From: Corynebacterium poyangense
Lineage (GTDB): Bacteria > Actinomycetota > Actinomycetes > Mycobacteriales > Mycobacteriaceae
DNA: 64,000 nucleotides
NCBI RefSeq assembly: GCF_014522205.1
Contig: NZ_CP046884.1
Location: 930,001-994,000, forward strand
Direction: 5' to 3'
Under the pieces are notes generated by a model, which was not told the DNA's origin, ran no database searches, and saw nothing but the letters and a program-made list of their open reading frames with translations. Within the stretch, counting starts at the first letter, position 1; every line of letters begins with the position of its first letter. Made by a program: the position numbers and the translations under genes. Of this stretch, positions 40,562 to 63,797 are shown one piece after another.

Positions 40562-40647
40562 AACTCTGGAGTATTCTAGGCCAGGTAAATTTTACTGTGA
40601 CGAGTTTTTGCCTATTGATGCGGGTTGATGCGGGAGGCGGTGATGAT

Positions 40648-41040: not shown

Positions 41041-41049
41041 GCGAATCTC

Positions 41050-42617: not shown

Positions 42618-42623
42618 CGCGGA

Positions 42624-43220: not shown

Positions 43221-43223
43221 GGG

Positions 43224-44552: not shown

Positions 44553-44581
44553 ACTTTGAGAGTTTAAAAGATGAGTATGAG
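44548..44581. repeat. inverted repeat at the divergent start region
   Basis: CTCATAC (44548-44554) and GTATGAG (44575-44581) face each other across 20 bases, over the start codon of the MgtE-like gene. It could be an operator or a transcript hairpin; no matching regulator site is recognised. Confidence 0.35.
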
Positions 44582-44683
44582 GGAACCTAACTACAAGAAG
44601 GGCGATTCTTGGAACAAAAAGGGATGCTTATGCGTTATGTACACAGTGATGGTTATCCGCCAGGGAGAGGATGGAGAACAACG

Positions 44684-45211
44684 ATGGTTCAGCCGGATCC
44701 ACAACGTCGAAATAGTGCAGTGTTGCGGGAGCGGCGACGGCCCTCGGGATGGCCAGTAGGAAGCTTTAGTACCTATGAACAGGCCCAAGCTGCCGTAGAT
44801 ATGCTGTCCGATAAAGAATTCCCAGTCAATGAAATCAGCATTGTCGGGGTGGACTTGATTGAAGTGGAAAATGTTACCGGACGTTTGACGTGGGCTAAGG
44901 TTCTGCTCTCTGGAGCCGCCAGCGGTGCCTGGATGGGGGTGTTTATTGGTCTACTCCTGGGGATCTTTGGCGAAGGCTGGTTATCACCACTTCTCACCGG
45001 CATACTCATGGGCGTAATTTTTGGCACTATCATGGCTGCAGTACCTTATGCGGCATCCCAAGGGCGTCGAGACTTTACTTCCTCGACCACCATAGTTGCT
45101 GGTCGATATGATGTTATTTGCACTCCTCAGAGGGCTCGAGAGGCTCGGGATTTAATTGCGGCAAGCGGCATAGCTACCGCTCGTCATTTCACTGGTGAGG
45201 AAGGCGCATAA
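44684..45211 (+). CDS. general stress protein 17M-like membrane protein
   Basis: A 175-residue protein. After a polar start comes V-G-S-F-S-T-Y-E-Q-A-Q-A-A-V-D, the YflT/general stress protein 17M fold, then two membrane helices rich in Gly (about 90-140), and a C-terminal part repeating the alpha-beta pattern (V-A-G-R-Y-D-V-I-C). ATG 44684 has GGAGA upstream and begins the conserved part. Function unknown. Confidence 0.75.
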   Translation: MVQPDPQRRNSAVLRERRRPSGWPVGSFSTYEQAQAAVDMLSDKEFPVNEISIVGVDLIEVENVTGRLTWAKVLLSGAASGAWMGVFIGLLLGIFGEGWLSPLLTGILMGVIFGTIMAAVPYAASQGRRDFTSSTTIVAGRYDVICTPQRAREARDLIAASGIATARHFTGEEGA

Positions 45212-45213
45212 CG

Positions 45214-45972
45214 ATGCTTAACGGACAGCCATCTCCGGCTAAGGCCGTCATGCTTTCTGTGACGGTGGTGAGCATAGGGGCCGTGTTAGGGGCATGTGCC
45301 AAGGCTGAGCCTGGGGCCGCTCCGATTCAAGACGAGGATCAAGCCGTCGTTATTGGGGTTAACGTCAGCTCTATGGAAGAAATGCTCCTCGGGGAGCTGT
45401 TCAAACAAGCATTAGATGCCGAAGGTATCAAAGCCACCGTTCAGGTTGATAGTTCCTCTACTAATCAAACTCCGATAGCACTATTGAACAAAGGCCATGT
45501 GGATATGGCCTTTGGGTGTACCGGTGAGCTATTGGAGAGACTCCACCCCAGCGCTGTGGCGGACATTTCTCAGAAGGTCAGCGGCAAGGATGGGGGTGAG
45601 GCTCAGGCTAAAGCTCAAGAGGAAGTGTATAAAGCCGTGGCGGCAGCACTGCCTGCAATGTATTCTCTTACTGATCCTTCCACCGCTCAAGGATGTAGCG
45701 GAGAAGCACAGCAGACAGATGTGGATCAAAAGCTGCCGGAAAATATTGTTCTGGTCTTTAGAAAAACCTCGGTTAATCGCCGCACCTATGAAGTGATGAA
45801 TACTGTGAATCGAACGATCACCACCGATGATCTTGAAGACATGCTCAAGGATGCGAAGCGTAACACCTCGATTTCGGAAACCGTGAGTGAATACTTGGCT
45901 ACCCACAATTTAGGGGGTGGAGAAGACACCGGGAGATCAATCAAGAGCAAGGATGAGATGACCGACATATAA
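45214..45972 (+). CDS. putative substrate-binding lipoprotein (OpuAC/GbpC-like)
   Basis: A 252-residue lipoprotein: signal peptide and lipobox L-G-A-C with Cys near residue 28. The mature part (V-V-I-G-V-N-V-S-S-M-E-E-M-L-L-G, later G-H-V-D-M-A-F-G) resembles glycine-betaine/OpuAC-type periplasmic binding domains. No permease or ATPase gene is nearby, so it may be an orphan. Two Cys in the mature part could form a disulfide. It begins three bases after the preceding gene. Confidence 0.7.
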   Translation: MLNGQPSPAKAVMLSVTVVSIGAVLGACAKAEPGAAPIQDEDQAVVIGVNVSSMEEMLLGELFKQALDAEGIKATVQVDSSSTNQTPIALLNKGHVDMAFGCTGELLERLHPSAVADISQKVSGKDGGEAQAKAQEEVYKAVAAALPAMYSLTDPSTAQGCSGEAQQTDVDQKLPENIVLVFRKTSVNRRTYEVMNTVNRTITTDDLEDMLKDAKRNTSISETVSEYLATHNLGGGEDTGRSIKSKDEMTDI

Positions 45973-46229
45973 CTTAACGTCAGCCCAACGTTTAGTGCCG
46001 AGCATTGGGCCATTTTATCGGGAAGCATTCGCGTTGCGGACATAAGAACTATGGTCTGGCCCTACGGGGGGGCGACGAACAGGGTTTTTACTATCTAATG
46101 AAAAACAGAGCACTGTCGGGATGTGCAAGGTTATGACTGCGGCGTCATTCACTATCGGGCCCGACGGCGTAAGGGAAAGGGGAGGGAACATTGTACAGGA
46201 TGAAAAGCGCCTAAAAATATCTATACAGA

Positions 46230-46336: not shown

Positions 46337-48094
46337 GTGAATACCGGTGTGCAACACTACAAAGTTCCGCAACCAATCTCAGATGCGGTATTGTGGCTTA
46401 TTGCGGGTGCGATTGCGGGAACCTTGCAGTTCAGCCTCGGCGACGAGCCCCAACGCTGGATGAGTGCCTTGTTGTTTGGGGCGGTAGCCGCGGGATTTCA
46501 TACACTCTTTAGTCTTAGCTTAAGGAAGCGTCGACATTCCTGCCTTGAAGGGTCATTTGAAGACTCTTTATTCATGTTGCTGATTGTTTGGGGCGGTGCA
46601 TCGGCTAGCGTCTTCGTGGTCATCGCTCTTATACATATAAGGAGTCTTCCCACCTGGGAAATGCTTCTCAGTACGCCGCTTATGGCGGGACTATTAATGT
46701 TGGGATTAACAGCGTGGGAAAGATCTAAATATAACGATAGACACCATCCCGCCGGCGTTAAAGGCACAAAGGTACTTGTTGTTGGTGCAGGTGAAGCCGG
46801 TTATTGGTTGGTCCGTTCGCTAAGTGATATCCACGCCAGCCCGTATCAGGTGGTGGGGCTCATTGATGACGACCCTAAAAAACTGGGGACCCGACTGGGC
46901 GGGGCTGTGAAAGTGCTGGGTGGGCGTGAAGAGCTAGGCAACCTAGCTAAACGTCTTCACGTTGATACTGTTCTTTTTGCTATTCACAATATCTCTGATG
47001 AAGGGATTAGAGATTACGCGAAAACTTGCACTCAGCATGGATTGAAAATGCTGATTCTGCCGAGTATTGAGCAAATGTTTCACAGAGAACTTAATGTTCA
47101 CCGAATTCGAGAAATCAAAATCGAAGATCTATTGGGGCGTCGTCAAATTACCACGGACCTTAGCCAGATCTCCGACTATATTTCGCAGCGGCGAGTACTA
47201 GTTACGGGAGCAGGTGGCTCAATTGGATCTGAAATCTGCCGGCAAGTACATCTATTGGAGCCTTCGGAACTTATAATGTTGGATCGCGATGAAAATGCGC
47301 TCCATGCGATCCAATTGGATATATATGGACAAGCACTTTTAAATACACCGGATATGGTGTTATGTGATATTAGGGACCAAGAAGCGTTATCCAAAATATT
47401 TAAAAAACATAAACCGCAGGTAATATTCCACGCTGCCGCTTTAAAACATCTACCTATGTTGGAATTATATCCAGAAGAAGGCTGGAAAACTAACACCCTG
47501 GGCAGTTATAACCTACTCAGATTAGCAGTAGAATATGGCGTTGAATGTTTTGTTAATATATCAACTGATAAAGCAGCCGATCCTACATCAACATTAGGAA
47601 GAACAAAAAGATTAGCGGAACAGCTGACTGCATATTTTGCGAAAATAACTAATAAGCCGTACGTATCAGTCAGATTTGGAAATGTATTAGGCTCCCAAGG
47701 ATCAGTATTTCATACCTTCAAGCATCAAATTGAACATGGAGGACCGATAACTGTTACCCATCGAGACGTGGAAAGATATTTCATGACAATTCCAGAAGCT
47801 TGTCAATTAGTGATTCAAGCTGGGGCTATCGGGCGGCCGGGAGAAGTCATGGTACTTGATATGGGCGAGCCGGTAAAGATTTATGAAATGGCCAAGCGAA
47901 TGATTGATATGAGCAAAAAAGATGTAGAAATAATTATCACCGGATTAAGACCAGGTGAGAAAATGAGCGAAATATTACTGTCAGCTACAGAGGATGCGGA
48001 TAGACCGTACCACCCACTAATCTCGCATGTGCCGGTTACACCTGTAGACGCTGAAAAAATTTATGAAAAAAGAACATATGCAATAGCTGGATAG
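46337..48094 (+). CDS. membrane-bound nucleotide-sugar 4,6-dehydratase (WbpM/CapD type)
   Basis: A 585-residue polysaccharide-biosynthesis protein. Four N-terminal membrane helices (to about 135) lead to a CoA-binding-like Rossmann domain (V-L-V-V-G-A-G-E-A-G-Y near 148) and a C-terminal short-chain dehydrogenase domain with V-T-G-A-G-G-S-I-G-S-E near 288 and N-I-S-T-D-K-A-A-D-P. Relatives convert UDP-GlcNAc into a 4-keto-6-deoxy sugar. The first part of the gene is GC-richer, like the host, and the part from about 47.3 kb on is visibly AT-richer. Start is GTG 46337. The next gene codes the aminotransferase expected to use the keto product. Confidence 0.88.
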   Translation: MNTGVQHYKVPQPISDAVLWLIAGAIAGTLQFSLGDEPQRWMSALLFGAVAAGFHTLFSLSLRKRRHSCLEGSFEDSLFMLLIVWGGASASVFVVIALIHIRSLPTWEMLLSTPLMAGLLMLGLTAWERSKYNDRHHPAGVKGTKVLVVGAGEAGYWLVRSLSDIHASPYQVVGLIDDDPKKLGTRLGGAVKVLGGREELGNLAKRLHVDTVLFAIHNISDEGIRDYAKTCTQHGLKMLILPSIEQMFHRELNVHRIREIKIEDLLGRRQITTDLSQISDYISQRRVLVTGAGGSIGSEICRQVHLLEPSELIMLDRDENALHAIQLDIYGQALLNTPDMVLCDIRDQEALSKIFKKHKPQVIFHAAALKHLPMLELYPEEGWKTNTLGSYNLLRLAVEYGVECFVNISTDKAADPTSTLGRTKRLAEQLTAYFAKITNKPYVSVRFGNVLGSQGSVFHTFKHQIEHGGPITVTHRDVERYFMTIPEACQLVIQAGAIGRPGEVMVLDMGEPVKIYEMAKRMIDMSKKDVEIIITGLRPGEKMSEILLSATEDADRPYHPLISHVPVTPVDAEKIYEKRTYAIAG

Positions 48095-48132
48095 ACGAGT
48101 TAATAACAAAAATTAAGATTAAAGGCAAGATT

Positions 48133-49296
48133 ATGAGTAGAATTCCTTTTGCTAAGCCTGATATCACCGAAAAGGAAGTGCAAGCAGCTGCAGATGCAAT
48201 TCGATCAGGTTGGGTTACGACAGGAGAAAATGCGGAGAAATTTGAAACAGAATTTGCACAATATCTTGGCAGTTCGGAATTACAATGTGTTGCAGTAAAC
48301 TCCGCGACCGCTGCGTTGCATCTAGCGGTAGAGGCCTTAGGAATTGGCCCTGGGGATGAGGTGTTAGTACCAACATGGACTTTCACATCAACAGCTGAAG
48401 TAGTCCGCTATGTAGGGGCAGATCCAGTCTTAGTGGATAGCAATCCAAATACGTATTTAATGTCTCTTGAGGATGCGGAAACCAAGGTCAGTCCGATGAC
48501 AAAAGCGATAATACCGGTCCATTTTGCAGGCCTACCGGTCAATCGTGACGCGCTTAATAAATTCGCTCATTCGCATCAACTAAAAGTCATTGAGGATGCC
48601 GCACATAGCCTACCAACGATGAGTGGTGGAAGAATGATTGGCGATATCCAGCCAGAAGATGCCACGGAAGCAGTGTGCTTCTCTTTCTATGCCACAAAAA
48701 CTATGACTACCGGAGAAGGTGGCATGCTAGTCACGCGAAATAAGGCGCTGGCGCGACGGGCAAAGACCATGCGTTTGCATGGAATTTCCAGAGATGTTTT
48801 TGACCGATATTCATCGCTGGACGCTTCGTGGTTTTATGAGGTTATAGCTCCAGGATTTAAATATAATCTCGGCGATATCGCGGCTGCTATTGGCCGAGTT
48901 CAGCTAGGACGTCTTGATGAAATGACTGCTAGAAGAACGGAAATTGCTCGACGGCTGACAGTAGAATTAGATGGACTTCCAATAAAATTACCAGTACAAG
49001 AAAGCGAAGCAAGGGGACATAGCTGGCATCTTTATGCCATACAAATATTGTCAGATTCTAGAGTGGATCGTGACACTTTCATCCAGGTGATGCGGGAAAA
49101 TGAAATAGGTTGCTCGGTCCACTTTATTCCTTTGCACAAGCATCCTTATTATAAACAACAATATAGTTATAAACCCGAGGAATTTCCTGTTGCGGAAGAA
49201 TGTTTCCGTAAAACTGTTTCGTTGCCGATCTACAGCTCACTATCTGATGATGAGGTAACTCGTATCATTGAAACGATAAAAAAAATTGTTGTTTGA
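48133..49296 (+). CDS. DegT/DnrJ/EryC1-family sugar aminotransferase
   Basis: A 387-residue PLP enzyme. The cofactor lysine is in Y-A-T-K-T-M-T-T-G-E-G-G near residue 196, and the start I-P-F-A-K-P-D-I-T-E-K-E-V resembles PglE/WbpE-type enzymes that aminate UDP-4-keto sugars. With the dehydratase upstream, a UDP-4-amino-4,6-dideoxy-GlcNAc-type sugar is the expected product. No sugar acetyltransferase (PglD-like) is seen in the cluster. Confidence 0.9.
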   Translation: MSRIPFAKPDITEKEVQAAADAIRSGWVTTGENAEKFETEFAQYLGSSELQCVAVNSATAALHLAVEALGIGPGDEVLVPTWTFTSTAEVVRYVGADPVLVDSNPNTYLMSLEDAETKVSPMTKAIIPVHFAGLPVNRDALNKFAHSHQLKVIEDAAHSLPTMSGGRMIGDIQPEDATEAVCFSFYATKTMTTGEGGMLVTRNKALARRAKTMRLHGISRDVFDRYSSLDASWFYEVIAPGFKYNLGDIAAAIGRVQLGRLDEMTARRTEIARRLTVELDGLPIKLPVQESEARGHSWHLYAIQILSDSRVDRDTFIQVMRENEIGCSVHFIPLHKHPYYKQQYSYKPEEFPVAEECFRKTVSLPIYSSLSDDEVTRIIETIKKIVV

Positions 49297-49329
49297 AAAT
49301 CGCGATACAAGAAAATTCTGAAATTTGCT

Positions 49330-50286
49330 ATGAACAGAAAATATGTTACCGCCTTATTGGCGATAATGCTATTAATTACATTAATAATATCGGTGATATT
49401 CAGTTATAGCTATATGAAGATCAACCGGCAAATTACACGGATTGATGTAGGAACAGTCGAAGATACCGGGCGTCCAGAAATTAATCAAAATTCAATGAAC
49501 TTTTTGATTCTTGGAACAGATGCGCGCAATAGCGATCCGAATATATCCGAATGGGAGGAGAGAGGCCAACGCAGTGATACAATAATGATAATTCAAGTAG
49601 AAAAGATATCGCACAAAATAAATGTATTAGAATTGCAACGCGATACTTGGGTAGATATTCCAGGATACGGAAAGGGAAAACTTAATTGGGCATATAGTTA
49701 TGGAGGAATGCCCTTAGCGATAAGAACCGTAGAGAATTTCAGCGGTATAAGAATTGATCATTGTGCAGTAGCTAACTTCAACGGATTTGTAAAACTTACT
49801 GATGCTGTAGGCGGCGTGGATATGAGCACGACCACTGAAGGTACAAAGCATTACGATGGAAAATCTGCATTGAATTTCGTGCGAGAACGATATCAATTGC
49901 CTAATGGGAACTTTGATCGGACACGGCGTCAAATGCTATGGATTCAAGCAATATATCAAACAATTCAAGAACAAGGAATTCTTAAAAACGCAGCCAAAAT
50001 AAACAGTTTCATCGATATTTTATCAGAATCTATCGTCGTAGATAGAAATTTTGAATTTTCAGATGTCCGCCAATTAATGAAAAGCTTTTATAACATGGCT
50101 GATGATGATTTACTTTTTATATCAATGCCAAATAAGGGTGTGGGCACCGAAGGTGATCAATCTATTGTCATTGCTGACCCAGAAGCTATGAATCAGTTAG
50201 CTGATGCATGGCGTACCGATCAAGTGTCTCAATTTGTTCGCGATAATCCGAAGATATTAACTTTAGATAAAGGACAGGTTTTTTAA
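49330..50286 (+). CDS. LytR-CpsA-Psr (LCP) family cell-wall ligase
   Basis: A 318-residue protein with one N-terminal membrane helix (residues 8-28) and an outside LCP domain: F-L-I-L-G-T-D-A-R near 57, Q-R-D-T-W-V-D near 105 and R-E-R-Y-Q-L-P-N-G-N-F-D-R-T-R-R near 184 with the Arg residues that grip pyrophosphate. LCP enzymes move lipid-linked polymers to the cell wall. Its stop overlaps the next start (TAATG). It lies inside the island and is AT-rich, so it is probably dedicated to this polymer. Confidence 0.92.
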   Translation: MNRKYVTALLAIMLLITLIISVIFSYSYMKINRQITRIDVGTVEDTGRPEINQNSMNFLILGTDARNSDPNISEWEERGQRSDTIMIIQVEKISHKINVLELQRDTWVDIPGYGKGKLNWAYSYGGMPLAIRTVENFSGIRIDHCAVANFNGFVKLTDAVGGVDMSTTTEGTKHYDGKSALNFVRERYQLPNGNFDRTRRQMLWIQAIYQTIQEQGILKNAAKINSFIDILSESIVVDRNFEFSDVRQLMKSFYNMADDDLLFISMPNKGVGTEGDQSIVIADPEAMNQLADAWRTDQVSQFVRDNPKILTLDKGQVF

Positions 50287-50897
50287 TGCGTGGTGTGAAG
50301 AATAAAGATTGCAGTTACATTTTAATAAAAAATACTTTAGATTTATTATGCGCAATTTTATTGTTTCCCACATTGGTATTGACACTCATTATAGTTGGCC
50401 CTGCAATTTATTTAACTAGCGGTGGTCCCATAATTTATCGCTCTCTAAGAAGAGGGATGAATGGGCAGACGTTTGTTATATATAAATTCAGGACGATGAT
50501 TAATAATGCTCCTGATATAAGGAAGCCGGATTACTCTACCGTCAATGGTGTGGAGGATCCACGAGTAACTAAAATAGGCGGCATATTAAGAAAAACCTCC
50601 ATTGATGAGCTGCCTCAGCTTATTAATGTTCTCAAGGGGAATATGTCAATAATTGGTCCTAGGCCTGATATGTCGACAAGAAGTTATAAAGATTTGGGTG
50701 ATCTAGAAAAGAAGCGGTTAGTAGTGAAACCTGGAATTACCGGTTTTACTCAAGCATATTACCGTAATTCCATTCCTGCGAGTGAAAAATATATCAAGGA
50801 CTGTTATTATGTGGATAATATGAGTGTTTATCTTGACTTTAAAATATTGGTCCGAACTTTACTAGCAGTCGTATCAGCTAAGAATATCGTGAGTTAA
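50286..50897 (+). CDS. PglC-like monotopic phosphoglycosyl transferase
   Basis: A 203-residue bacterial sugar transferase, about the size of minimal PglC. One N-terminal re-entrant hydrophobic segment (about 15-38) is followed by Y-K-F-R-T-M, the catalytic dyad D-E in S-I-D-E-L-P-Q, and I-G-P-R-P. These enzymes move phospho-sugar from UDP-sugar to undecaprenyl phosphate and start the repeat unit. The likely sugar is the 4-amino sugar made by the two enzymes above. Confidence 0.92.
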   Translation: MRGVKNKDCSYILIKNTLDLLCAILLFPTLVLTLIIVGPAIYLTSGGPIIYRSLRRGMNGQTFVIYKFRTMINNAPDIRKPDYSTVNGVEDPRVTKIGGILRKTSIDELPQLINVLKGNMSIIGPRPDMSTRSYKDLGDLEKKRLVVKPGITGFTQAYYRNSIPASEKYIKDCYYVDNMSVYLDFKILVRTLLAVVSAKNIVS

Positions 50898-50908
50898 TAG
50901 GCCGGTAT

Positions 50909-52150
50909 GTGGATATGCGAGAGAGTATTATTATATTAGGCGCATCTGTTCTTCAAATTCCATTAATTAAAAAAGCCGCAGATTTGGGTTACCGGACAGT
51001 CGTCTTAGATCGTAATTCCAACGCTGACGGTAGGTTTCTCTGTGATGAGTTCTTTGAGATATCGACTGTCGATAGGGTTGGGGTAGAGAAAGTAGCAGAA
51101 CGAATTGATCCTGTTGCAATTATTACTGCAGCAACTGATTTACCGATTAACGTTATATCTTCTGTCTCTAAGAAACTTGGCCTGAAGTCAATTGGGCCCG
51201 ATTGTGCGCGTCGGTGCACGAATAAAGCGGAGATGATGGGGGCGCTGAAAAGTGTAGATTTAGCGATACCACGATATACAGTCGTTAGTAGTTACGATGA
51301 TTTTAGATCTGCGGCTTTTGAACTAGCTAGTATAGACTCATCATCCGACCTTGCTTCGATGAATGAATGCAAAGCAGCTTTTGATCCAGATATTTTGATT
51401 AAACCTGTGGATTGTTCTGGTTCTCGTGGGGTTGTGAAGATCGCTTCATTGAAAGATCAAGATCTGCGATTTGCATGGAAATACTCGACTGCAGCGTCGA
51501 CCTATGGGAAATTTATTGTATCTGAATTCATGCATGGTCCAGAAGTGTCGGTTGAGATGTTCATGGAAGGCGGTCGGGTACGGTTTGCTGAGATCACAGA
51601 CAAAGCTACGACTGGTTCTCCAGAATTCGTAGAAATTGGTCATAGTCAGCCTTGCATGCTTGCAGCAGATATTCAAGAAAATATTTTAACTTTAGCCGAG
51701 GACGCGGTTGATGTTCTTGGAATAGATGAAGGACCAGCGCATGTAGAGATTATTGTTGATAGAGAAGAAACTCCAAGAATTGTAGAAGTAGGTGCTCGGC
51801 TAGGTGGCGACTTTATAACGTCCCATCTTGTACCACTGTCTACTGGAGTCGATTTGTTGGCCGCCACAATTAACCACGCCTGTGGCAAGCGCGCAGATTT
51901 TCGCAGAACAAAGCAACAGGGAACAGCTATTCGGTACATTTTACCGTACTTTAATTCCGACAGATTTGCTAAGTGCGGAAACCACGTAGTTAAAGGCGTT
52001 GTCCATGCGCATTTGCCTGAGACCATTTCGGCTTTATCGGAAGGAAAATTGGATTCAGCTTCACGAATTGGTGAAGTGATATGTACTGGTAAAGATGTTA
52101 ATGAGGCCCGTCAACGGTGTCTTCAATGGAGTGGGGAGAAAATATGGTGA
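50909..52150 (+). CDS. ATP-grasp ligase 1 of the polysaccharide island
   Basis: A 413-residue ATP-grasp enzyme like carboxylate-amine ligases: N-terminal Rossmann-like I-I-I-L-G-A-S-V-L-Q, ATP-binding D-I-L-I-K-P-V-D-C-S-G-S-R-G-V, F-I-V-S-E-F, and metal-binding E-I in R-I-V-E-V-G-A-R-L-G-G-D. It joins a carboxylate to an amine by way of an acyl-phosphate. The start is GTG 50909 or ATG 50915. It overlaps the next ATP-grasp gene by seven bases. Substrate unknown; candidates are amino acids joined to the amino sugar. Confidence 0.85.
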   Translation: MDMRESIIILGASVLQIPLIKKAADLGYRTVVLDRNSNADGRFLCDEFFEISTVDRVGVEKVAERIDPVAIITAATDLPINVISSVSKKLGLKSIGPDCARRCTNKAEMMGALKSVDLAIPRYTVVSSYDDFRSAAFELASIDSSSDLASMNECKAAFDPDILIKPVDCSGSRGVVKIASLKDQDLRFAWKYSTAASTYGKFIVSEFMHGPEVSVEMFMEGGRVRFAEITDKATTGSPEFVEIGHSQPCMLAADIQENILTLAEDAVDVLGIDEGPAHVEIIVDREETPRIVEVGARLGGDFITSHLVPLSTGVDLLAATINHACGKRADFRRTKQQGTAIRYILPYFNSDRFAKCGNHVVKGVVHAHLPETISALSEGKLDSASRIGEVICTGKDVNEARQRCLQWSGEKIW

Positions 52151-53370
52151 ACATCGAAGGCATTACCTTAAGAAATCACTCGATCGGTTCAGGATCTGGT
52201 CGTTATAAATTAGCCTTGTTGGGTGCAGGTCGCGCCAATCTAGGCCTAGCAAAATGCGCTAAACGAATGGGTATTCAGTTGAGTGTCTTGACTGAATACC
52301 GGGATGAAAAATACCCGTGCTTACTATATGCGGATAAGATCATAGAGTGTGATATAACTGACATTAATTGGGTCTTATCTTCCTTGCGGAAATATGATAT
52401 AGACGGCGTGGTAAGTACCTGCTCTGATACTCCACTGCTGGCACAAGCGTATCTCGTAACCGAAAAAAATCTTATCGGGCCGTCTGTTTTTACTGCTGAA
52501 GCTTGCGTTTCTAAAAAACTATTAAAAGAAAAATTAAATGATCAGAAGGTAAATACGCCAAAAGCATTCATTATTGATGAAAATTCAACAGATCAGGACA
52601 TAGTGAACAATTTGCAATTGCCGGTAATCGCTAAACCGATTGTTGGACAAGGGTCCGCCGGGGTTGAAATCTTAGACACGGTAGAAGAAATTAGCAATTG
52701 GAGGAATACGCACCCGTCTGAAAAATGGGTAGTGGAAGAATATTTAGACATATCCTATGAATTTGGGGCACAAGCATTTTTGGCTGACGGAGAGATAATA
52801 TTTATTGAATTCCATAATGATGAGGTTCTCTCCAAGAATAATCCCATCCCTGTACTGCACAGTTTTCCATTTAAACATACAAGTATTATGGAAGATGCTA
52901 GAATCCAAGCAGTAAATGCGATTAATGCCCTAAAAATCACGACAGGAGCAGTAAATATCGATTTTGCCTATAGTAAAGGTGAGATTTATGTAATTGAGAT
53001 CACAAATCGCGCCGGGGCTAACGGACTGGTCGAAAGTATCTCGAGTCGTTTTGGGATTGATTATAATGAACTAATTATCCGAGAAGCATTGGGGTTGGGT
53101 GTCGAGGAGTTATGGCGAAATAGGTGTGATCCTCAACCGGCAATAGCAGTCAGAATGTTGTATTCAAATGACAGGAAAAAAATAACTCGTGTCAGAGTAA
53201 CTGGTGAAACGCCAAATTCTAATCTCACTTCCTTTCTTACAACCATGACGACAGTGTCAGCACCAACATCATCAAATGATTACGTTGGGCAACTTTTAGT
53301 GCATGGAGACACGCTAGAGGAAGTAGAAGCGGAATTGCAAGTGTTACTAGAAAAGGTTGAATACGAGTAG
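52144..53370 (+). CDS. ATP-grasp ligase 2 of the polysaccharide island
   Basis: A 408-residue ATP-grasp enzyme, related to the first but diverged: L-A-L-L-G-A-G-R-A-N-L near residue 22, P-V-I-A-K-P-I-V-G-Q-G-S-A-G-V and E-I-T-N-R-A-G-A-N-G. The start ATG 52144 has GGGGAG seven bases upstream and overlaps the first ligase end. The in-frame ATG at 52117 is less likely. Two such ligases in tandem suggest two successive acylations, or acylation with two different groups. Confidence 0.85.
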   Translation: MVNIEGITLRNHSIGSGSGRYKLALLGAGRANLGLAKCAKRMGIQLSVLTEYRDEKYPCLLYADKIIECDITDINWVLSSLRKYDIDGVVSTCSDTPLLAQAYLVTEKNLIGPSVFTAEACVSKKLLKEKLNDQKVNTPKAFIIDENSTDQDIVNNLQLPVIAKPIVGQGSAGVEILDTVEEISNWRNTHPSEKWVVEEYLDISYEFGAQAFLADGEIIFIEFHNDEVLSKNNPIPVLHSFPFKHTSIMEDARIQAVNAINALKITTGAVNIDFAYSKGEIYVIEITNRAGANGLVESISSRFGIDYNELIIREALGLGVEELWRNRCDPQPAIAVRMLYSNDRKKITRVRVTGETPNSNLTSFLTTMTTVSAPTSSNDYVGQLLVHGDTLEEVEAELQVLLEKVEYE

Positions 53371-53381
53371 CGGATCTACCA

Positions 53382-54656
53382 ATGAGAAAAATGATCATAT
53401 TGGCAAACGCCTTTCCTTATGGAACATGGGAACCTTATCTGGCTACTGAACTGCGCTATTTGGTTCGTAAATATGATATCTATATCTATTCACTGATGCT
53501 CCGAAAAGAGCAACTCCGAACGTGCAGAACTATAGATCCTGGAATAAAGGTCGGCAAAATATTTCAGCGACATCCTGCCGTATATTTTTTGTGGATAATC
53601 AGGGTCCTTTTAGATGTACACTTTTATGAAGAAGTGATATATCTTTCACATGCCGGTAATCTCAATATGACCACGGTAAAGAACCTGTGTAAATTTCTGT
53701 CACGGGCACATTATGAAAAGCATCAGATTCTCAAAGATGTAAAAAAATCATGGCATCCAACTATTGATGAAGAATTAGTAATATATGCATATCGATCAGA
53801 ATATCAACCATACGTCGCTAGAATGGTGGCAAACAAGTTTCCGAATAATAATATAAAAGTAATTTCCAGGGCGCATAGCAAAGATCTATATGAATATCGA
53901 AATCCAAAAAATTATTTGCCATGTCGTAAATTAACCTTTCAATCCGTAGATAGAGTATATTGCGTGTCAGACCACGGCTACCAATATTTGACCAATCGAT
54001 TTTCGAAACACAAGAATAAATTTGTCGTAAGCCGTTTAGGGGTGAATAGGTCAGGTTATAATAATAGCCGATCCAGATCTAAAAACAGTCAACTCAAGAT
54101 AGCCACATGTTCAGCACTGATTCCGGAAAAAAGAATTGAATTATTAGTTCAAGCATTAAAGCTTATTAAAAATATTGATATTGATTGCACTATTTTTGGT
54201 AGCGGTCCAGAAGCCCGAAATATCATAGCTGAAGTATCCCTATTGGGAAAAAATATTAATGTCCATGTTATGGGGAATACTGCTTGGGAAAAGATAATGA
54301 AATGGTATTCATCGGAAAGTTGTGACTTATTGGTCAATGTATCTACAATAGAAGGTGTTCCGGTTTCAATTATGGAGGCATTGAGTTTTGGGGTACCGGT
54401 TATGGCGACTGCTGTGGGCGGGAATGTAGAGATTGTAAATGATGATAACGGAATTTTGCTTCCAGCTAATCCAGGTCCTTCCCTAATAGCCGATGCATTA
54501 GAGAAATTTGCGTCATTAAATCATAAGGGAAAGGATTCTTACAGACGCAACGCTCTTAATTCCTGGGAAAAAAATTGGAATGCCGAGGTCAATTACTCAA
54601 AGTTTATATTAAATATTGAGGAATTGTTCGTGCAATCTCCGGGCATTTCAGTTTAA
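53382..54656 (+). CDS. GT4-family glycosyltransferase
   Basis: A 424-residue GT-B glycosyltransferase. The C-terminal domain carries the family 1/GT4 pattern: A-T-C-S-A-L-I-P-E-K-R near 247, N-V-S-T-I-E-G-V-P-V-S-I-M-E-A near 326, and G-G-N-V-E-I. It is the only recognised sugar transferase besides the PglC-like enzyme, so the lipid-linked unit may be a disaccharide unless other transferases lie elsewhere. Confidence 0.88.
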   Translation: MRKMIILANAFPYGTWEPYLATELRYLVRKYDIYIYSLMLRKEQLRTCRTIDPGIKVGKIFQRHPAVYFLWIIRVLLDVHFYEEVIYLSHAGNLNMTTVKNLCKFLSRAHYEKHQILKDVKKSWHPTIDEELVIYAYRSEYQPYVARMVANKFPNNNIKVISRAHSKDLYEYRNPKNYLPCRKLTFQSVDRVYCVSDHGYQYLTNRFSKHKNKFVVSRLGVNRSGYNNSRSRSKNSQLKIATCSALIPEKRIELLVQALKLIKNIDIDCTIFGSGPEARNIIAEVSLLGKNINVHVMGNTAWEKIMKWYSSESCDLLVNVSTIEGVPVSIMEALSFGVPVMATAVGGNVEIVNDDNGILLPANPGPSLIADALEKFASLNHKGKDSYRRNALNSWEKNWNAEVNYSKFILNIEELFVQSPGISV

Positions 54657-54671
54657 CTGAGTGGGTAAAAT

Positions 54672-57584
54672 ATGGTTTGCTATCTAAAACTATCTAATAA
54701 AGTTGATTTGCCATTGCGTATACGGCTAATTGCTTTTATAGTGGCATTCTCCGTCCTATTTTTATTTTTAGCGTTCAACAGTGATGCGTTAATATTTGGT
54801 TTTGTGCTGGCCATATGGATTTCCTGGCTTGGGTATCTTATTAGTCTTGGTAAATCGGGTATGGTCTCTGTAATTTTCTACCTGTTTTTTGGCGCAGTAT
54901 TATTGGGTAGGGAAACTATAGATCTTACCTTTAACTTACGTATAAATGATTTTCCTCAGCATGTAAATAAATGGGTTTATGTTGAGCTTGCAAGTTGCTT
55001 AATTGCGATGATTTTTTCCTACTCAATTTTGCAATACGCTGGTAAGGAAAAGCGAAAAGGTGGAAATTGTTATCATATAGTCCATGATTTCTTACGCTTC
55101 CGCAATAGAGATTTTGCAAGGTTTGAATTAAATTTAGGAAGGCTGAAGTATTTGTATCAGCTTGATATTAGATCATCCTTAGTTTATCTCTTTATTTTTT
55201 TGTTGATGGTATCCTACCTTAAAAAGAGTTATGAAATTAGCTATGTTTTACAAAATGGATACCTATCATTATATACGGAGTTTGCAAAGTCCTCCGCGGA
55301 TCAACCTTGGCTGATTCTATTGACAAAATGTGAACAGATGTTGCAGCTAAGCTTCAGCAGTATTCTAGCGTTTAGCAAAGTCAATAAGAAATCTCTCTTA
55401 TTAATTGGTGGTTATGTAATTTACTTAGCGTTAACCTTGTTAACGGGACAAAGGTTTAATGCGACTGTTGGGCTACTAATTCTAGTAATATTTTTTATAT
55501 TGAAGTGTAACCATGTAATCATCAAATTTTTCCAACAGCGGACTTTTACTGCATGCTCACTGCTTGTGCTGGGGATTATTTCAGCTATACTGATCTTGGA
55601 GTTTGTTGAACACTCTAGGGGAACAGGACGTGATACCTTCACCTCACCTGTCCTAAATTTATTGTATCAGCAGGGTGTTTCTATTATGGTACTGAAGCGT
55701 GAGCTTTTGTATCATGACCATTTAAACCAGGATATCTATTATTCACTTTCATTTTTATACTATGGAATTTTTGCCCGGTTTCGTGGAATTCCAGTCCTGC
55801 ATGGTAATACTGTAGAAAACGCTCTTAATGGCGCCAGCCTAAGCAGAGCGTTGACGTATGCCTTGGATAAACCTTTATATTTACGTGGGGGTGGCTACGG
55901 AAGCTCTTTTATAGCCGAAGCACATGCTGATTTTGGGCTAATTGGAGTCATAATCATCGCGTTTCTCTATGGAGCCTTATTATATTGGTTGGATGGTATA
56001 GGATGTTCGGCCCGGCAGGATATCCTACGTTATCTTTTAATTCCTCTAATTATCTGGGCCCCTCGAGGTGAAGCGACAGGATTCGTGACTACCTTATTTC
56101 AACCCGCGAATTTGCTTTTCATCGCGTTATTATTAGCTTTCGCTTTGGTGTCTAAGGTATCGCAATGGTTCACTTCGTTCATAGGTGCCACTATGAAAAA
56201 GCTACTTCTCTCAGTGGCTGTGAATTTTATCAGTTTGGTCACTATGGGATTGCTAACACTGGTACTCCCCGGAATTCTCGGGCATACGGAGTATTCATGG
56301 TGGCAGGTATATGTCATGTGGTCAATATATGGCGGTTATCTAACACTTGGCCTGACTGATGGAGCTTATCTTATGTACGGCGGTTTTTCCCAGGAGAACG
56401 TTCCTTCAAAGCTTATCAGTGTTCAACTGAAATCTCTTATTGGCTTCCACCTCATATTTTCGATTTTTGCTATTGCGATTATGATCTGGTGGAAGCCGTT
56501 AGATACGTGGTATTGGCTGGTTATATGTGTCGTATTTTCAAATTTATTTTATGTACCCAGATTGTTACTTACGGCAATGATGCAAACTACATCCAGTATT
56601 GTCGACTTTTCTAAAATTATTATCCTTGAAAAATTGGTTTACTTATTTGGGGCCGCGGCAATCCTAACTACGGGATATCGCGGGTTTATTGGCATAATAT
56701 TTATGGACCTATTCTCGAAAGCAGTGGGCTTTAGTTATTCTCTTTATCTTTCTAAAGAGTTCCTATCTTGGTCTGATGTTTCTTTTAGTGAATTGAAAAG
56801 CGAGATATTCAAGTCCATGAGCATTGGCCTGTATGTGGTAGTAGCTAATTTCTGTTCATTATTAATCAATGGCATTGTTCGCATGGTGATTCATTATCAC
56901 TGGGGGTTAGCAGCGTTTGGATATATTTCTTTTTCATTTACTATCGCGAATTTAGTTATTACTTTCGGCCAGGCAATATCAATTGTTATTTTCCCTTATC
57001 TTAAACGGTTTGATATTGAGAGTTATAGTCTTATCTATAATAAAATATCCGCTCCTTTGACTTTATTCCTTACCCTTTCGCTGCTTTGCTATTTCCCCTT
57101 GTCTTTATTTATTGGTTTGTATTTGCCGGAATATAAGTTTCCCGTTATAGTTTTAGGAATTCTTTTCCCAATGATGTTGTTTGAGGCTAGATACCGAGTC
57201 TTAGATATGACTTATTTAAAGGCTCTCAGGATGGAGAGATTTCTTATGGTTAATAATATTTTATCGGTTCTTATAGCATTGGCATTATCAACGTCTATCG
57301 CCTATTACTTTAATAATATAGTTTATACCGTCTTGGTGATTACAATAGTTACCGCCTGGCGTTGTCTTAGTTCGGAAATCGCTTTGAGGAGTAGGATAGA
57401 CATTTATCCATACCGGGATTTGTTCATTAGTGTAATTGGATCCTCGCTTATGTGTATTGTGGTTTTGAAATTTCATTTCATTTCGGGTGGACTCCTAATG
57501 CTTTTGTATGTTATTGTAGTTCTTTTAATTCGTCCACGTATTGATGTTTCAAGGCCTTTGTTGATTTTTTCAAAAGGTGCTTAA
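54672..57584 (+). CDS. fused O-antigen-type polymerase (Wzy) and flippase (Wzx)
   Basis: One 970-residue, almost wholly hydrophobic protein. Residues 1 to about 495 look like an O-antigen/capsule polymerase: many membrane helices and T-G-Q-R-F-N-A-T-V-G (near 259) and G-G-G-Y-G-S-S-F-I-A-E-A (near 413) with D-F-G-L-I-G-V. From about 508 (an internal M-K-K-L-L-L-S-V) to the end it resembles a Wzx/MATE-type flippase with 12-14 helices. The link is only about twelve residues. An AGGTG sits five bases before the internal ATG at 56193, so separate translation of the flippase is possible. Roles: moving the lipid-linked repeat across the membrane and joining repeats. Confidence 0.75.
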   Translation: MVCYLKLSNKVDLPLRIRLIAFIVAFSVLFLFLAFNSDALIFGFVLAIWISWLGYLISLGKSGMVSVIFYLFFGAVLLGRETIDLTFNLRINDFPQHVNKWVYVELASCLIAMIFSYSILQYAGKEKRKGGNCYHIVHDFLRFRNRDFARFELNLGRLKYLYQLDIRSSLVYLFIFLLMVSYLKKSYEISYVLQNGYLSLYTEFAKSSADQPWLILLTKCEQMLQLSFSSILAFSKVNKKSLLLIGGYVIYLALTLLTGQRFNATVGLLILVIFFILKCNHVIIKFFQQRTFTACSLLVLGIISAILILEFVEHSRGTGRDTFTSPVLNLLYQQGVSIMVLKRELLYHDHLNQDIYYSLSFLYYGIFARFRGIPVLHGNTVENALNGASLSRALTYALDKPLYLRGGGYGSSFIAEAHADFGLIGVIIIAFLYGALLYWLDGIGCSARQDILRYLLIPLIIWAPRGEATGFVTTLFQPANLLFIALLLAFALVSKVSQWFTSFIGATMKKLLLSVAVNFISLVTMGLLTLVLPGILGHTEYSWWQVYVMWSIYGGYLTLGLTDGAYLMYGGFSQENVPSKLISVQLKSLIGFHLIFSIFAIAIMIWWKPLDTWYWLVICVVFSNLFYVPRLLLTAMMQTTSSIVDFSKIIILEKLVYLFGAAAILTTGYRGFIGIIFMDLFSKAVGFSYSLYLSKEFLSWSDVSFSELKSEIFKSMSIGLYVVVANFCSLLINGIVRMVIHYHWGLAAFGYISFSFTIANLVITFGQAISIVIFPYLKRFDIESYSLIYNKISAPLTLFLTLSLLCYFPLSLFIGLYLPEYKFPVIVLGILFPMMLFEARYRVLDMTYLKALRMERFLMVNNILSVLIALALSTSIAYYFNNIVYTVLVITIVTAWRCLSSEIALRSRIDIYPYRDLFISVIGSSLMCIVVLKFHFISGGLLMLLYVIVVLLIRPRIDVSRPLLIFSKGA

Positions 57585-58916
57585 ATGTATAGTCAAAATA
57601 TATCTGAAAATATAGAAGTTGGTAGGGACGTTTCTCCAGATGAAATAATGGCTGGAAGATTTAAATCCACCAAGGTGTGCTTATTTTTCCAATCTCGCTT
57701 CAATCGAGTTTTGCTTTTAGGCTTGGTGCTAGTTATTTGTTTATTTGCTTGGTCTACTCGAGGATATCTGTGGGATAAGGTGGGTGAGGTATCTGTTTCC
57801 TCGCCTGCGTATCGATCTTTTCTTGGTCGCTGGACTGATGTGGTCGGTGATGATTCGCCTTCTGGAATTAATTTAGGTGATCATAAATTAAAAAATCCGC
57901 ATTTTGATTCTGTTCAAAATTTTATTGTAGATGGCAATCGGGTTTTTAGCGTTAAAGATTATCACGTGATTTTTAAGGGCTTCATTCTTCCTCCTGTTTC
58001 AGCCTCGGACAATCTAGTTAATGTTTTTGACGGCGTGGCAATGTATTCGTCCGGTAATAATGGCTATTTTGTTGACCTCAGTACTCGTAAAGTTTTTGCT
58101 TTACCCGAAGGGTTTAAGGCTATTCGTCCCTTGGGAATCTTTAGTAACAATTTAGTTGTAGGAACTGGTCTTGATACAGAGTCCGGATTGACGAAAACTA
58201 TTGGTTTTGATTCAAATGGAAATATGAAATGGTCACATGATAGTACTTGTAAGGGTGGGATACAAAATGAGTCCCAATTGGTGTTGGTTGAGAATTGCGC
58301 TTCTTATGACGGTGAGCATGATAGTCGATTGCTGAGGAGAACTTTAGATGTCAAATCCGGTGTAGTTGCGGAGTTTCAGCTTTCGGCTAATGAATATCTT
58401 GACGTTATTGGTGATGATAGATATGTTATCGATGCAGTGTCCGGTGGAATTCGTAGGTTTGATGAGCATATGGCTCTGATTCCGGAAAAGACGGTCTCAA
58501 CGAAGGCTTTAGGTGGTGCGAAAATTTCCTATAATGGTTATCATGTTATTTTCCGCACGTACGATTTATTTGAACGGACTCGTGGCCTAGAGCGTGTCGA
58601 TGAAATGATTTCAAATGACCCTTATTCAACCAATACTTTTATGGTCTTGAATGGTGGTATGGCCGTCAGTATTGATTCTGATTTCCAGTGTTCAGATCCA
58701 GTCTTTATAGAAAATAATCAAAGATATATTTGTGGATTTGGTGAGCGCAATGGCTTACCGTTTTCCGCTGGGGCATACTCAGTGTATGACACGGAGTCTA
58801 GGCAATTGATTAATAGTGGTGTAGCAGAAGGGTTACTTATCCGCTTCAATGGTGGCTTGGCGTCGTTTTTGTTTAGGGAAAACGGTATTGGAAGTCAGTT
58901 ATTTTTAGTCAGCTAA
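57585..58916 (+). CDS. unrecognised membrane-anchored extracytoplasmic protein
   Basis: A 443-residue protein starting at an ATG immediately after the preceding stop. One membrane helix (about 46-66, L-L-L-G-L-V-L-V-I-C-L-F) is followed by a large outside part of short strands with repeated D-G/N-G turns and several Cys (S-T-C-K-G-G, V-E-N-C, F-Q-C-S-D, Y-I-C-G-F). The pattern resembles a beta-propeller (repeats such as V-D-L-S-T-R-K-V-F-A-L-P-E-G), but I recognise no family. Being last in the operon, it may modify, bind or export the polymer. Codon use is T-rich and unlike the core genes. Confidence 0.6.
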   Translation: MYSQNISENIEVGRDVSPDEIMAGRFKSTKVCLFFQSRFNRVLLLGLVLVICLFAWSTRGYLWDKVGEVSVSSPAYRSFLGRWTDVVGDDSPSGINLGDHKLKNPHFDSVQNFIVDGNRVFSVKDYHVIFKGFILPPVSASDNLVNVFDGVAMYSSGNNGYFVDLSTRKVFALPEGFKAIRPLGIFSNNLVVGTGLDTESGLTKTIGFDSNGNMKWSHDSTCKGGIQNESQLVLVENCASYDGEHDSRLLRRTLDVKSGVVAEFQLSANEYLDVIGDDRYVIDAVSGGIRRFDEHMALIPEKTVSTKALGGAKISYNGYHVIFRTYDLFERTRGLERVDEMISNDPYSTNTFMVLNGGMAVSIDSDFQCSDPVFIENNQRYICGFGERNGLPFSAGAYSVYDTESRQLINSGVAEGLLIRFNGGLASFLFRENGIGSQLFLVS

Positions 58917-58931
58917 CTCGCCGATTATATA

Positions 58932-58977
58932 AGAAAGGCTAGTGACTACTCTTTAATTTGCGGTCATTAGCCTTTCT
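58932..58977. terminator. bidirectional terminator between the island and odhA
   Basis: AGAAAGGCTAGTGAC (58932-58946) pairs with GTCATTAGCCTTTCT (58963-58977): 15 bp with one G-T pair, loop 16 bases. The two operons are convergent here. Confidence 0.8.
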
Positions 58978-59015
58978 TCTGCTAGGAAAGCTCTGGCATC
59001 CCGAGCTTCACGAAG

Positions 59016-62000
59016 CTATGAAAATGCTTCTTCTAGTAGCTGAGTTTGCTCAGCTTGGTGGACTTTCGCGATACCCGTGGAGGTAGAAGACTGCGAACGT
59101 CGAGAGATACGACGCAATGGCAACATATCTGGGATTAGGTTGGGAAGGTGCTCGTTATAGAACGGCCACGGTCCTTGATTGGCCGGTTCATCCTGTACAA
59201 AACGAATTTCCTCGGCATTCGGGAAGGCATCGAAGGCTTCCTTGAGGCGGTTGAAAGGAATAGGATGCAGCATCTCTACCCGGATGATAGCAACGTCATC
59301 ACGCTTATCCTTAGCCCGCTTCTTTTCTAGGTCATAGTAAATCTTGCCGGAGCACAGCATGATGGTCTTTACTTTATCCACGTCGCCAACTACCTCATGG
59401 TGAGCGTTGACGAGGCGTGGATCGTTGATGACAGCCTGGAACTTCTTGGTTTCAGTGAAGTCCTCCACGCTGGACACAGCGGCTTTATTACGCAGCATGG
59501 ACTTTGGAGTAAACACCACCAAGGGGCGACGAAGCCCACCAAGTGCATGACGGCGCAAGAGATGAAAGTGATTAGCAGGGGTGGAGGGCTGAGCTACGGT
59601 CATAGAACCTTCAGCGCATAGCTGTAAGAAACGCTCGATTCGGGCTGAAGAGTGGTCCGGCCCTTGGCCCTCATAACCATGAGGTAAGAGCAATATAACC
59701 GAGGACAGTTGTCCCCACTTAGCTTCACCGGAAGAGACATATTCATCAATGATGGTCTGCCCACCATTGGCAAAATCACCGAACTGAGCTTCCCACGCCA
59801 CGACGGCATCAGGGTTTCCTACCGAATAGCCATACTCAAATCCCATACCAGCAAACTCCGTGAGAGCGGAGTTATAGACCAGGAATTTGCCCTCACCCTT
59901 GGATTGGGCAAGTTCGTGAAGGGCGTTGAATTCTTCACCAGTCTGGGGGTCATAAACCACAGCGTGTCGTTGAGTAAAGGTGCCGCGCCGGGAATCTTCG
60001 CCAGCTAGACGGACAAGTTTTCCAGCGTTAGCCAAGGAACCGAAGGCGATGAGCTCACCCCAGCCCCAATCAATTCCCCCTTCCGTGACTGACGCGAGGC
60101 GTTTCTTAGCTACTGGTTTGACTCGCGAGTGGAATTCGAAACCTTCTGGAAGGTTGGAATAAGCATTTCCAATCTCTACCAGTTCTTCTCGAGTGATATT
60201 GGTTTCTAAACCATGCGGAAGATCCTGAGAGCTGGTGATGCCCGTTTGCTCCTGGGGACCTTTCTTCTCCGCTTCTTTCACCTCGTTGAAGACGCTTTCC
60301 ATCTGGTCATGGAAGTCGCGAGCAGCTTTTTCAGCATCCTCATTAGAAAGATCACCGCGTCCAACAAGATCCTCAGTGTAATGAGCACGAACCGATTCAC
60401 GGTGGTTAATCAATTCATACATCTTTGGCTGAGTCATGGAGGGATCATCAGCTTCGTTATGTCCGCGTCGACGATAACAAACCAGGTCAATGAAGACATC
60501 TTTACCGAAGCGACGACGGTACTCAGTAGCTAGCTGGCCTACCCACACTACGGCTTCCGGATCATCACCATTGACGTGGAAGACTGGGCAACCGTAGGCC
60601 TTAGCAAGGTCGGTAGCGTAGTGGCAGGACCGTCCGGAATCTGGGGTAGTGGTAAAACCAATCTGGTTGTTGACGACGATGTGTACTGTTCCACCGACCG
60701 TGTAACCGCGAAGTTGAGCCAGATTGAGTGTTTCTTGAACTACTCCCAGGCCAGCGAAAGAGGCATCTCCATGCAGCATGAGCGGCATGACGGTGTAGCC
60801 TTCTTGACCTTTATCCAGAATGTCTTGGCGAGCACGAGCCAGACCCACCATCACCGGATCAACGGCTTCTAGGTGCGAGGGGTTCGCGGTCAAACTGACT
60901 TTAATTTCCCCGTCACCAAACATCTGAATGTGTTGACCTTCAGCGCCAAGGTGATATTTTACGTCGCCCGAACCGCCGGTCTGGGCTTGCTCCATGTTGC
61001 CTTCAAACTCGTTGAAGATGGTGGCCAGCGGTTTACCGACGATATTAAAGAGCACGTTGAGGCGCCCGCGGTGCGGCATCCCGATAACTACTTCGTCAAG
61101 ACCTTGGCCCGCAGCGGTATCAATGGCGGAGTCCATCAGCGGGATGAGAGATTCGGCACCTTCCAGCGAGAAACGCTTTTGGCCAACATACTTGGTCTGG
61201 AGGAAGTTCTCAAAGGCCTCGGCTGCATTGAGCTTTTGAAGAATATACTTCTGCTCGGCATTGGTGGGCTTAGGCATCCCAGCTTCTAACCGGTCTTGGA
61301 GCCAAAGCCGTTCATCGCGATCCAGAATGTGGGAATATTCGCTTCCTACCTTCAGCGTGTAGGCGGAGCGCAGCCGGCTCAAAACCTCACGCAAAGTCAT
61401 GGTTTCTTTACCGCCGAATCCACCCACGTTAAAGGTGCGGTCCAGATCCCAGAGACTTAGGCCGTGAGTGGCGATATCGAGATCGCGGTGATCGGGGATC
61501 GGAAGCCCTGGCTGATGCCAATTCAATGGGTTGGTGTCAGCAATGAGGTGACCCCGAGAACGATAGGCCTCAATGAGCTGCATGACCCTGGTGTTTTTAT
61601 CGACACCAGTATTAGGAATGTCCTGAGCCCAACGCATCGGCGTATAAGGAACCTTCATGCATTCGAAGATTTCGTCCCAGAAGGCGTCATCAATGAGCAG
61701 TTGGCTCATGGTGCGCAGGAAGTCACCGGATTCGGCACCTTGAATGATGCGGTGGTCATACGTCGAGGTAATAGTGACAAGCTTTCCGACGCCTAGTTCA
61801 GCGAGACGGTCAGCAGAGGCACCGGCAAATTCAGCCGGGTAATCCATAGAACCGACACCAATAATCGTGCCCTGTCCCTTGGTAAGTCGGGGAACGGAAT
61901 GTCGGGTACCTATTCCACCGGGGTTAGTTAGGGAAATAGTGACTCCCTGATAATCCTCCAGTGTGAGTTTTCCTACCCTAGAGCGGTTAACTATGTCTTC

Positions 62001-62807: not shown

Positions 62808-62909
62808 GGAGGTGACAGAAGTCTCTTCCAGGTACAGCGTACGCGTAGGAGTATGTGAGCGACACGTCGAGGGTCACTATTCACCCCCGTGTGTGTAAGA
62901 TTTCCACTT

Positions 62910-63749: not shown

Positions 63750-63797
63750 TGAATATCCTTCCGGTAGATAATTGAATATTTATAAGAATAGTAGAGT

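Follow-up and report, generated by a model that had tools for sequence, protein, structure and literature searches.

A phosphoglycosyl transferase with two ATP-grasp ligases in a Corynebacterium poyangense operon: a possible route to an acylated amino sugar in a wall polymer

Main finding and proposed pathway

The stretch of Corynebacterium poyangense DNA analyzed here (contig NZ_CP046884.1, positions 930,001 to 994,000; 64,000 nucleotides, henceforth the window) belongs to a single-contig genome of 2.62 Mb and contains an operon in which the genes of two ATP-grasp ligases, LIG1 and LIG2, follow that of a phosphoglycosyl transferase (PGT). On balance we favor the view that this operon makes a wall-attached Wzy-type polymer, the first sugar of which would be a 4-N-acylated 2-acetamido-2,4,6-trideoxyhexose carrying an arm built by LIG1 and then by LIG2, a proposal drawn from sequence and from analogy with a glycosylation system of Neisseria. 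Many surface glycans of bacteria contain 4-amino sugars with an acyl group, the identity of which can seldom be read from the gene cluster. The recurrent set of PGT, LIG1 and LIG2, with its fusions, would allow such sugars to be recognized from gene content in surface polymers of Gram-positive bacteria and Bacteroidota, and the presence of a polymer attached to the wall, and possibly aminoacylated, in a Corynebacterium-like organism can be tested directly.

In the proposed pathway, the dehydratase and the aminotransferase of the operon would, judging by their families, convert UDP-GlcNAc into a UDP-4-amino sugar; FlaA1/WbpM-like dehydratases and PseC-like aminotransferases together yield UDP-2-acetamido-4-amino-2,4,6-trideoxyhexose. 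LIG1 would convert a small carboxylic acid, with an amino acid the likeliest choice, into an acyl phosphate and join it to the 4-amine, as suggested by its fold, by PGT fusions and by the Neisseria enzyme PglB2. LIG2 may add a second residue to the LIG1 product and give a short aminoacyl or dipeptide-like arm, which is the weakest step of the scheme and is suggested by fusion and co-occurrence. The PGT would transfer the decorated sugar-1-phosphate to undecaprenyl phosphate, a GT4-type glycosyltransferase would add one further sugar, a fused flippase/Wzy protein would export and polymerize the product, and an LCP enzyme would join the chain to the wall.

Two distinct ATP-grasp ligases

The original prediction, made from the sequence alone, described two different, overlapping ATP-grasp genes between a PGT and a glycosyltransferase. 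This arrangement stands, with a Bac_transf gene upstream and a GT4 gene downstream of the following pair.

50915..52150, plus strand: LIG1, ATP-grasp ligase of a clade found beside or fused to PGT, 411 amino acids
52144..53370, plus strand: LIG2, second ATP-grasp ligase, 408 amino acids

The open frames containing them span 50909-52150 and 52117-53370. LIG1 probably starts at ATG 50915, in keeping with a database copy of 411 amino acids, and not at the earlier GTG 50909. The likely start of LIG2 is ATG 52144, which is preceded by GGGGAGA and agrees with a 408-amino-acid database copy, GTG 52117 being less likely; the two genes therefore overlap by 7 nucleotides and not by 34.

Pfam matches, conserved residues and folds concur in making both proteins ATP-grasp enzymes. 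LIG1 and LIG2 exceed the Pfam cut-offs of PF13535 (66.9 and 30.8 bits, respectively) and PF02655 (38.7 and 38.6 bits). They are distinct enzymes: BLASTP between them returned short matches only, with E values of 0.58 and worse, and their nearest relatives also differ. Residues K104, K163, E278, E291 and R295 of LIG1 are invariant in 21 sequences, and K124, K164, D273, E285 and R289 of LIG2 are kept in nine. The E..E..R residues of BacD, which we take to be catalytic, align with E278, E291 and R295 of LIG1, and the conserved residues of both ligases presumably serve in nucleotide and magnesium binding.

The nearest solved structures of both ligases include the L-amino acid ligases BL00235 (3vot), RizA (4wd3) and BacD (3vmm, 3wnz, 3wo1), which share fold and main motifs with LIG1 and LIG2 at 15-22% identity in structural alignments. 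BL00235, RizA and BacD make dipeptides or bacilysin, and we know of no linkage of these enzymes to a PGT. LAL_C2 (PF18603) did not match LIG1 and matched LIG2 at 23.7 bits, below the cut-off of 29.4; the related LIG1 and LIG2 of an Anaerococcus hydrogenalis cassette (L024) pass it with 56.4 and 31.0 bits.

Recurrence of the set

A scan with a LIG2 alignment in one genome per species gave 178 confirmed relatives, and the locus counts that follow refer to the best 80 of these, on contigs that are often cut. A locus was called PGT-bearing when a PGT lay within 4.5 kb of LIG2. The checks proposed in the original prediction included a search for the gene neighborhood in other genomes and a phylogeny of the ligases. 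Twenty of the 80 loci were PGT-bearing and LIG1 was also present in 19 of them, so that the complete set occurs in 19 of 80; LIG1 was near LIG2 in only eight of the 60 PGT-less loci (Fisher p of about 3e-11, which is only indicative because the species are related). The label 'PGT nearby' required four changes on the LIG2 tree (86 rows) against a shuffled mean of 18.7, and two on the LIG1 tree (47 rows) against 13.8; the trees carry SH-aLRT (SH-like approximate likelihood-ratio test) support only, and several long branches meet in them, that of the window LIG2 included.

Other functions of the operon recur with the set. A 4,6-dehydratase matched in 13 of 20 PGT-bearing and three of 60 other loci, an aminotransferase in 20 of 20 and 29 of 60 (14 of 20 and 17 of 60 when confined to the same strand within 6 kb), a Wzy protein in nine of 20 and none of 60, and an LCP protein in three of 20 and five of 60. 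A glycosyltransferase of the window type was found in nine PGT-bearing loci, always directly 3' of LIG2, and in none of the others. The dehydratase and aminotransferase counts, together with the PGT-LIG1 fusions, make the 4-amino sugar acceptor of the original prediction plausible. As proof, the presence of an aminotransferase is weakened by the control loci. PseC was the best NCBIfam match, always below its cut-off, for ten aminotransferases (nine from PGT-bearing loci and one from the PGT-less locus L053).

The loci with the set belong to Actinomycetota, Bacillota and Bacteroidota, and their carriers include Actinomyces, Tessaracoccus, a Ruaniaceae genome, Bacillus, Cytobacillus, Anaerococcus, Prevotellaceae and Bacteroides. 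In the Ruaniaceae locus (L018) the order is LCP, dehydratase, aminotransferase, PGT, LIG1, LIG2, glycosyltransferase, Wzy and flippase. A Parabacteroides distasonis record has Wzy, flippase, glycosyltransferase, LIG1, PGT, LIG2 and aminotransferase; it is listed as a plasmid yet contains ileS, which makes the listing doubtful. Members of the set are also found fused: PGT to LIG1 in P0002 and P0010, two of the 120 relatives listed, and LIG1 to LIG2 at full length in eight database proteins (P0130-P0136 and P0138) and in Tessaracoccus (L029). The shorter proteins P0137, with its LIG1 part cut, and P0139, in which the LIG1 domain was not found, were left out of the full-length count. A search of a phage collection with P0010 gave four records, all matching its PGT part only. 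Co-occurrence counts, fusions and clean open frames led us to reject chance or artefact as an explanation.

The two-ligase set is not peculiar to corynebacteria: LIG2 occurs in one of 201 genomes of the genus but in loci of three phyla, and a genus-wide trait is rejected. LIG1 occurs in three of the 201 (E 1e-20), the other two copies being remote (33-34%). The LIG2 profile matched two of 394 genomes of the class and the LIG1 profile 10 of 396 genomes of the phylum; the 11 LIG1 loci of the other nine phylum genomes had no PGT within about 1.5 kb on either side, and one of the LIG1 loci without a nearby PGT (L118) has an aminotransferase within about 1.5 kb.

A cps cluster on an Enterococcus hirae plasmid contains LCP, Wzz, CpsD, CpsB, dehydratase, aminotransferase, an SDR protein of the epimerase type, PGT, LIG1, two glycosyltransferases, O-antigen polymerase, acyltransferase and flippase; a further ATP-grasp gene was absent from the stretch examined. 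A PGT can thus have LIG1 as its sole ligase partner, which makes LIG2 look like an extra component. In a more general scheme, which we rate as somewhat less likely than not, LIG1 and LIG2 would form a widespread and so far undescribed two-step ATP-grasp module. Ahead of polymerization by Wzy, the module would assemble a defined arm of two residues, much as Mur ligases assemble a peptide, on a 4-amino sugar linked to a nucleotide or lipid; it would operate in at least three phyla and give a wall glycopeptide polymer in the Corynebacterium-like host.

Other ATP-grasp arrangements were seen during the survey. A third, TupA-like ATP-grasp lies directly 3' of LIG2 in two Bacteroidota loci (L019:11170-12114 and L021:11173-12141), and its BLASTP cluster has members in four more loci. 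P0141 and P0142 combine a LIG1-like ATP-grasp with a PF00291 (cysteine-synthase type) domain in a single protein. A plasmid-borne sugar cluster of Brachyspira hyodysenteriae has one LIG2-like ATP-grasp gene (L122:7950-9149) along with two genes annotated as ATP-grasp fold amidoligase.

Comparison with Neisseria and competing explanations

The closest known parallel is protein glycosylation in Neisseria, where PglC and PglD are reported to form a pair that feeds either PglB, an acetyltransferase/PGT, or PglB2, an ATP-grasp/PGT that leads to the glyceramido sugar GATDH; the 4-glyceramido group on the first sugar is attributed to the ATP-grasp domain of PglB2 (PMC6959607, PMC11130364). The likeness to the window lies in the architecture: both have a dehydratase and an aminotransferase in the locus and a PGT adjacent or joined to an ATP-grasp enzyme (fused in P0002 and P0010). 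In Neisseria one ligase adds a glyceramido group and the oligosaccharide is passed to proteins by O-linked glycosylation. A PglB2-type system would have a single ligase with neither polymerase nor wall transferase; the window differs in having two ligases together with Wzy and LCP genes for polymerization and wall attachment.

Because LIG1 lies beside or is fused to PGT, and given the PglB2 parallel, its most likely task is to acylate the 4-amine ahead of transfer to the lipid, and we regard an action of LIG1 on the amino sugar as likely. The nature of the acid is an even question. An amino acid is suggested by the L-amino acid ligases among the nearest solved enzymes and by the lack of a donor-making gene among the neighbors scanned; glycerate or another acid is equally credible, since PglB2 yields a glyceramido sugar. 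The original prediction that an amino acid or another acid is joined to the amino sugar keeps its plausible outline, with the amino acid itself not established. It is likewise a balanced question whether LIG2 extends the arm that LIG1 has begun. The claim that no corynebacterial system of this type had been described proved too strong in one respect: Neisseria already provides the principle of acylation by one ligase. The apparent novelty lies in the conserved partnership with a second ligase, in combination with a Wzy/LCP wall polymer. Among the open-licence papers listed by our searches we recognized no description of the LIG1-LIG2-PGT set, a weak negative that depends on wording.

The strongest competitor, which we nonetheless consider unlikely, keeps closer to PglB2. 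The acid that LIG1 couples to the 4-amine would be glycerate or a different hydroxy acid, and LIG2 would work elsewhere, for instance by supplying that acid or by forming an amide destined for a different sugar in the repeat. PglB2 itself is reported to make GATDH from the same kind of precursor, the PGT-LIG1 fusions have its architecture, and the E. hirae cluster pairs PGT with LIG1 where no second ATP-grasp gene is seen. However, LIG1-LIG2 fusions and tight pairing suggest successive steps on one substrate, and the nearest solved enzymes include L-amino acid ligases.

That LIG2 acts first is improbable. It would make a small dipeptide or amide, which LIG1 would then ligate whole to the amino sugar. 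Ligases that form free dipeptides (3vot, 4wd3 and BacD) are among the structural neighbors of LIG2, and the LIG1-LIG2 fusions are compatible with either order. Against this order, the E. hirae locus suggests that LIG1 is independent of LIG2, and LIG2 near a PGT without a recognized LIG1 was seen in only one of 20 loci.

We also give little credence to the possibility of a zwitterionic polymer in which the 4-amine stays free and the residue amidated by the ligases is a uronic acid or a different sugar within the repeat. The model would be Cj1438C of the Campylobacter capsule, reportedly an ATP-grasp domain responsible for an amide on capsular glucuronic acid (GlcA); it is like the window ligases, in their proposed role, in performing ATP-grasp amide formation on a surface polysaccharide. 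Among the 20 PGT-bearing loci, seven have members of one cluster, the representative of which resembles a nucleotide-sugar dehydrogenase on visual inspection. In contrast, no uronate-making gene was recognized in the window operon, the PGT fusion points to the first sugar, and Cj1438C is TupA-like, an ATP-grasp of another type than LIG1 and LIG2 that joins a sugar carboxylate to an amine. To our knowledge, no PGT partnership exists for TupA-like/Cj1438C enzymes.

Finally, that LIG1 and LIG2 are housekeeping-type purine or peptide enzymes placed in the island by chance, as the title of structure 4DIM ('phosphoribosylglycinamide synthetase', Anaerococcus prevotii) might suggest, is very hard to credit, because 4DIM matches at full length (E 4e-236) the LIG2 of an A. 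hydrogenalis cassette with LIG1 and PGT (L024:9959-11185) and the sugar-operon context recurs in three phyla. That match places 4DIM in the LIG2 family and makes its title doubtful; the LIG2 type it represents stands beside PGT and LIG1 in Anaerococcus, which argues against a PurD identity and makes purine enzymes unlikely. The recurrence of the set likewise suggests that the title is wrong. We found no tested function for the 4DIM protein in this analysis.

Several observations weigh against the pathway we favor, in which LIG1 and LIG2 act in turn on the 4-amine. Among the selected neighbors scanned, we recognized no gene for making a donor from which the acid could have been identified. Both ligase families also occur in loci without PGT; since these make up 60 of the 80 LIG2 loci, and 29 of the 60 have an aminotransferase, neither LIG2 nor the aminotransferase is tied to a sugar-acylation task. 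One PGT-bearing locus (L015) has no recognized LIG1. The PurT and PurK folds score just slightly below the L-amino acid ligases for both LIG1 and LIG2. The window aminotransferase is 50% identical to that of L053, a locus with a LIG2-like ATP-grasp gene, and 40-42% identical to those of L061, L075 and L083, all four being PGT-less loci of Paenibacillaceae, and 29-40% identical to most cassette aminotransferases; the sugar of the window may therefore differ. Some other cassettes also have hexapeptide-repeat proteins or a TupA-like ATP-grasp, which makes other acylations possible.

The operon and its genomic setting

The operon adjoins odhA. Its nine genes (46337-58916) lie on one strand with gaps of at most 38 nucleotides or small overlaps. 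Besides LIG1 and LIG2, which stand between the fourth and fifth entries below, they are, in order:

46337..48094, plus strand: NDP-sugar 4,6-dehydratase, long form, 585 amino acids (PF02719, 339.7 bits)
48133..49296, plus strand: DegT/PseC/ArnB-like sugar aminotransferase, 387 amino acids (PF01041, 404 bits)
49330..50286, plus strand: LCP-family glycopolymer transferase, 318 amino acids (PF03816, 117 bits; TIGR00350 above cut-off)
50286..50897, plus strand: small monotopic PGT, Bac_transf, 203 amino acids (PF02397, 187 bits)
53382..54656, plus strand: GT4-type glycosyltransferase, 424 amino acids (PF00534, 88.8 bits)
54672..57584, plus strand: Wzy polymerase (residues 18-492) in frame with a flippase-like membrane half (about 518-953), 970 amino acids (PF14296 on the N half only)
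57585..58916, plus strand: ORF9, probably membrane-anchored, last gene of the operon, 443 amino acids (strongest hydrophobic stretch near residue 48)

The PGT, glycosyltransferase, polymerase and attachment enzyme of a wall or capsule polymer locus are thus all in the window, and the dehydratase and aminotransferase named in the original prediction were recovered. We take the dehydratase to be of the FlaA1/WbpM/PglF-like type; PseB and FnlA of NCBIfam both stayed below cut-off, and it is 45-48% identical to the dehydratases of six actinobacterial cassettes. The aminotransferase matched PseC (349.3 bits) and PRK11658 (348.0 bits), each below cut-off, and the PGT is 43-55% identical to the PGTs of the 20 other PGT-bearing loci.

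The 54672-57584 product shows 22 hydrophobic peaks in a crude scan. Its C half has no Pfam match and resembles only stand-alone open reading frames of flippase-like size (481 and 487 amino acids) from loci of Actinomyces, with 29.5% identity and an E value of 2e-57. In L018 the Wzy frame holds a GT2 domain, where that of the window holds the flippase-like half. ORF9, with neither a Pfam nor an NCBIfam match, starts directly after the Wzy gene, and its part in the system is uncertain. The original prediction had also noted the lack of a sugar acetyltransferase. No acetyltransferase family was recognized in the nine island reading frames, with ORF9 and the C half of the Wzy protein lacking Pfam matches. 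The absence was dropped as proof, since six hexapeptide-repeat reading frames occur in five other cassette loci (L015, L020, L028, L031 and L032, selected neighbors scanned).

The island was most likely acquired, given its low G+C content and its absence at six of eight loci of the same genus. In 1-kb steps, the G+C content is 36-45% over 47000-58999 and reaches 48.7% in the 46000 step; the flanking steps (40000-45999 and 59000-63999) have 50-55%. Eight of 18 other genomes of the genus yielded the locus through a neighboring DUF (domain of unknown function) gene; six have odhA within the same 3.4-3.5 kb and no island, and in the other two odhA lies outside the stretch compared. Five of the six island-free loci have an equivalent of the lipoprotein-like gene at the left island edge (45214-45972), at 27-30% identity where the neighbors of this gene reach 52-80%. 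Elsewhere in the window, a selenocysteine tRNA gene lies at 9146-9240.

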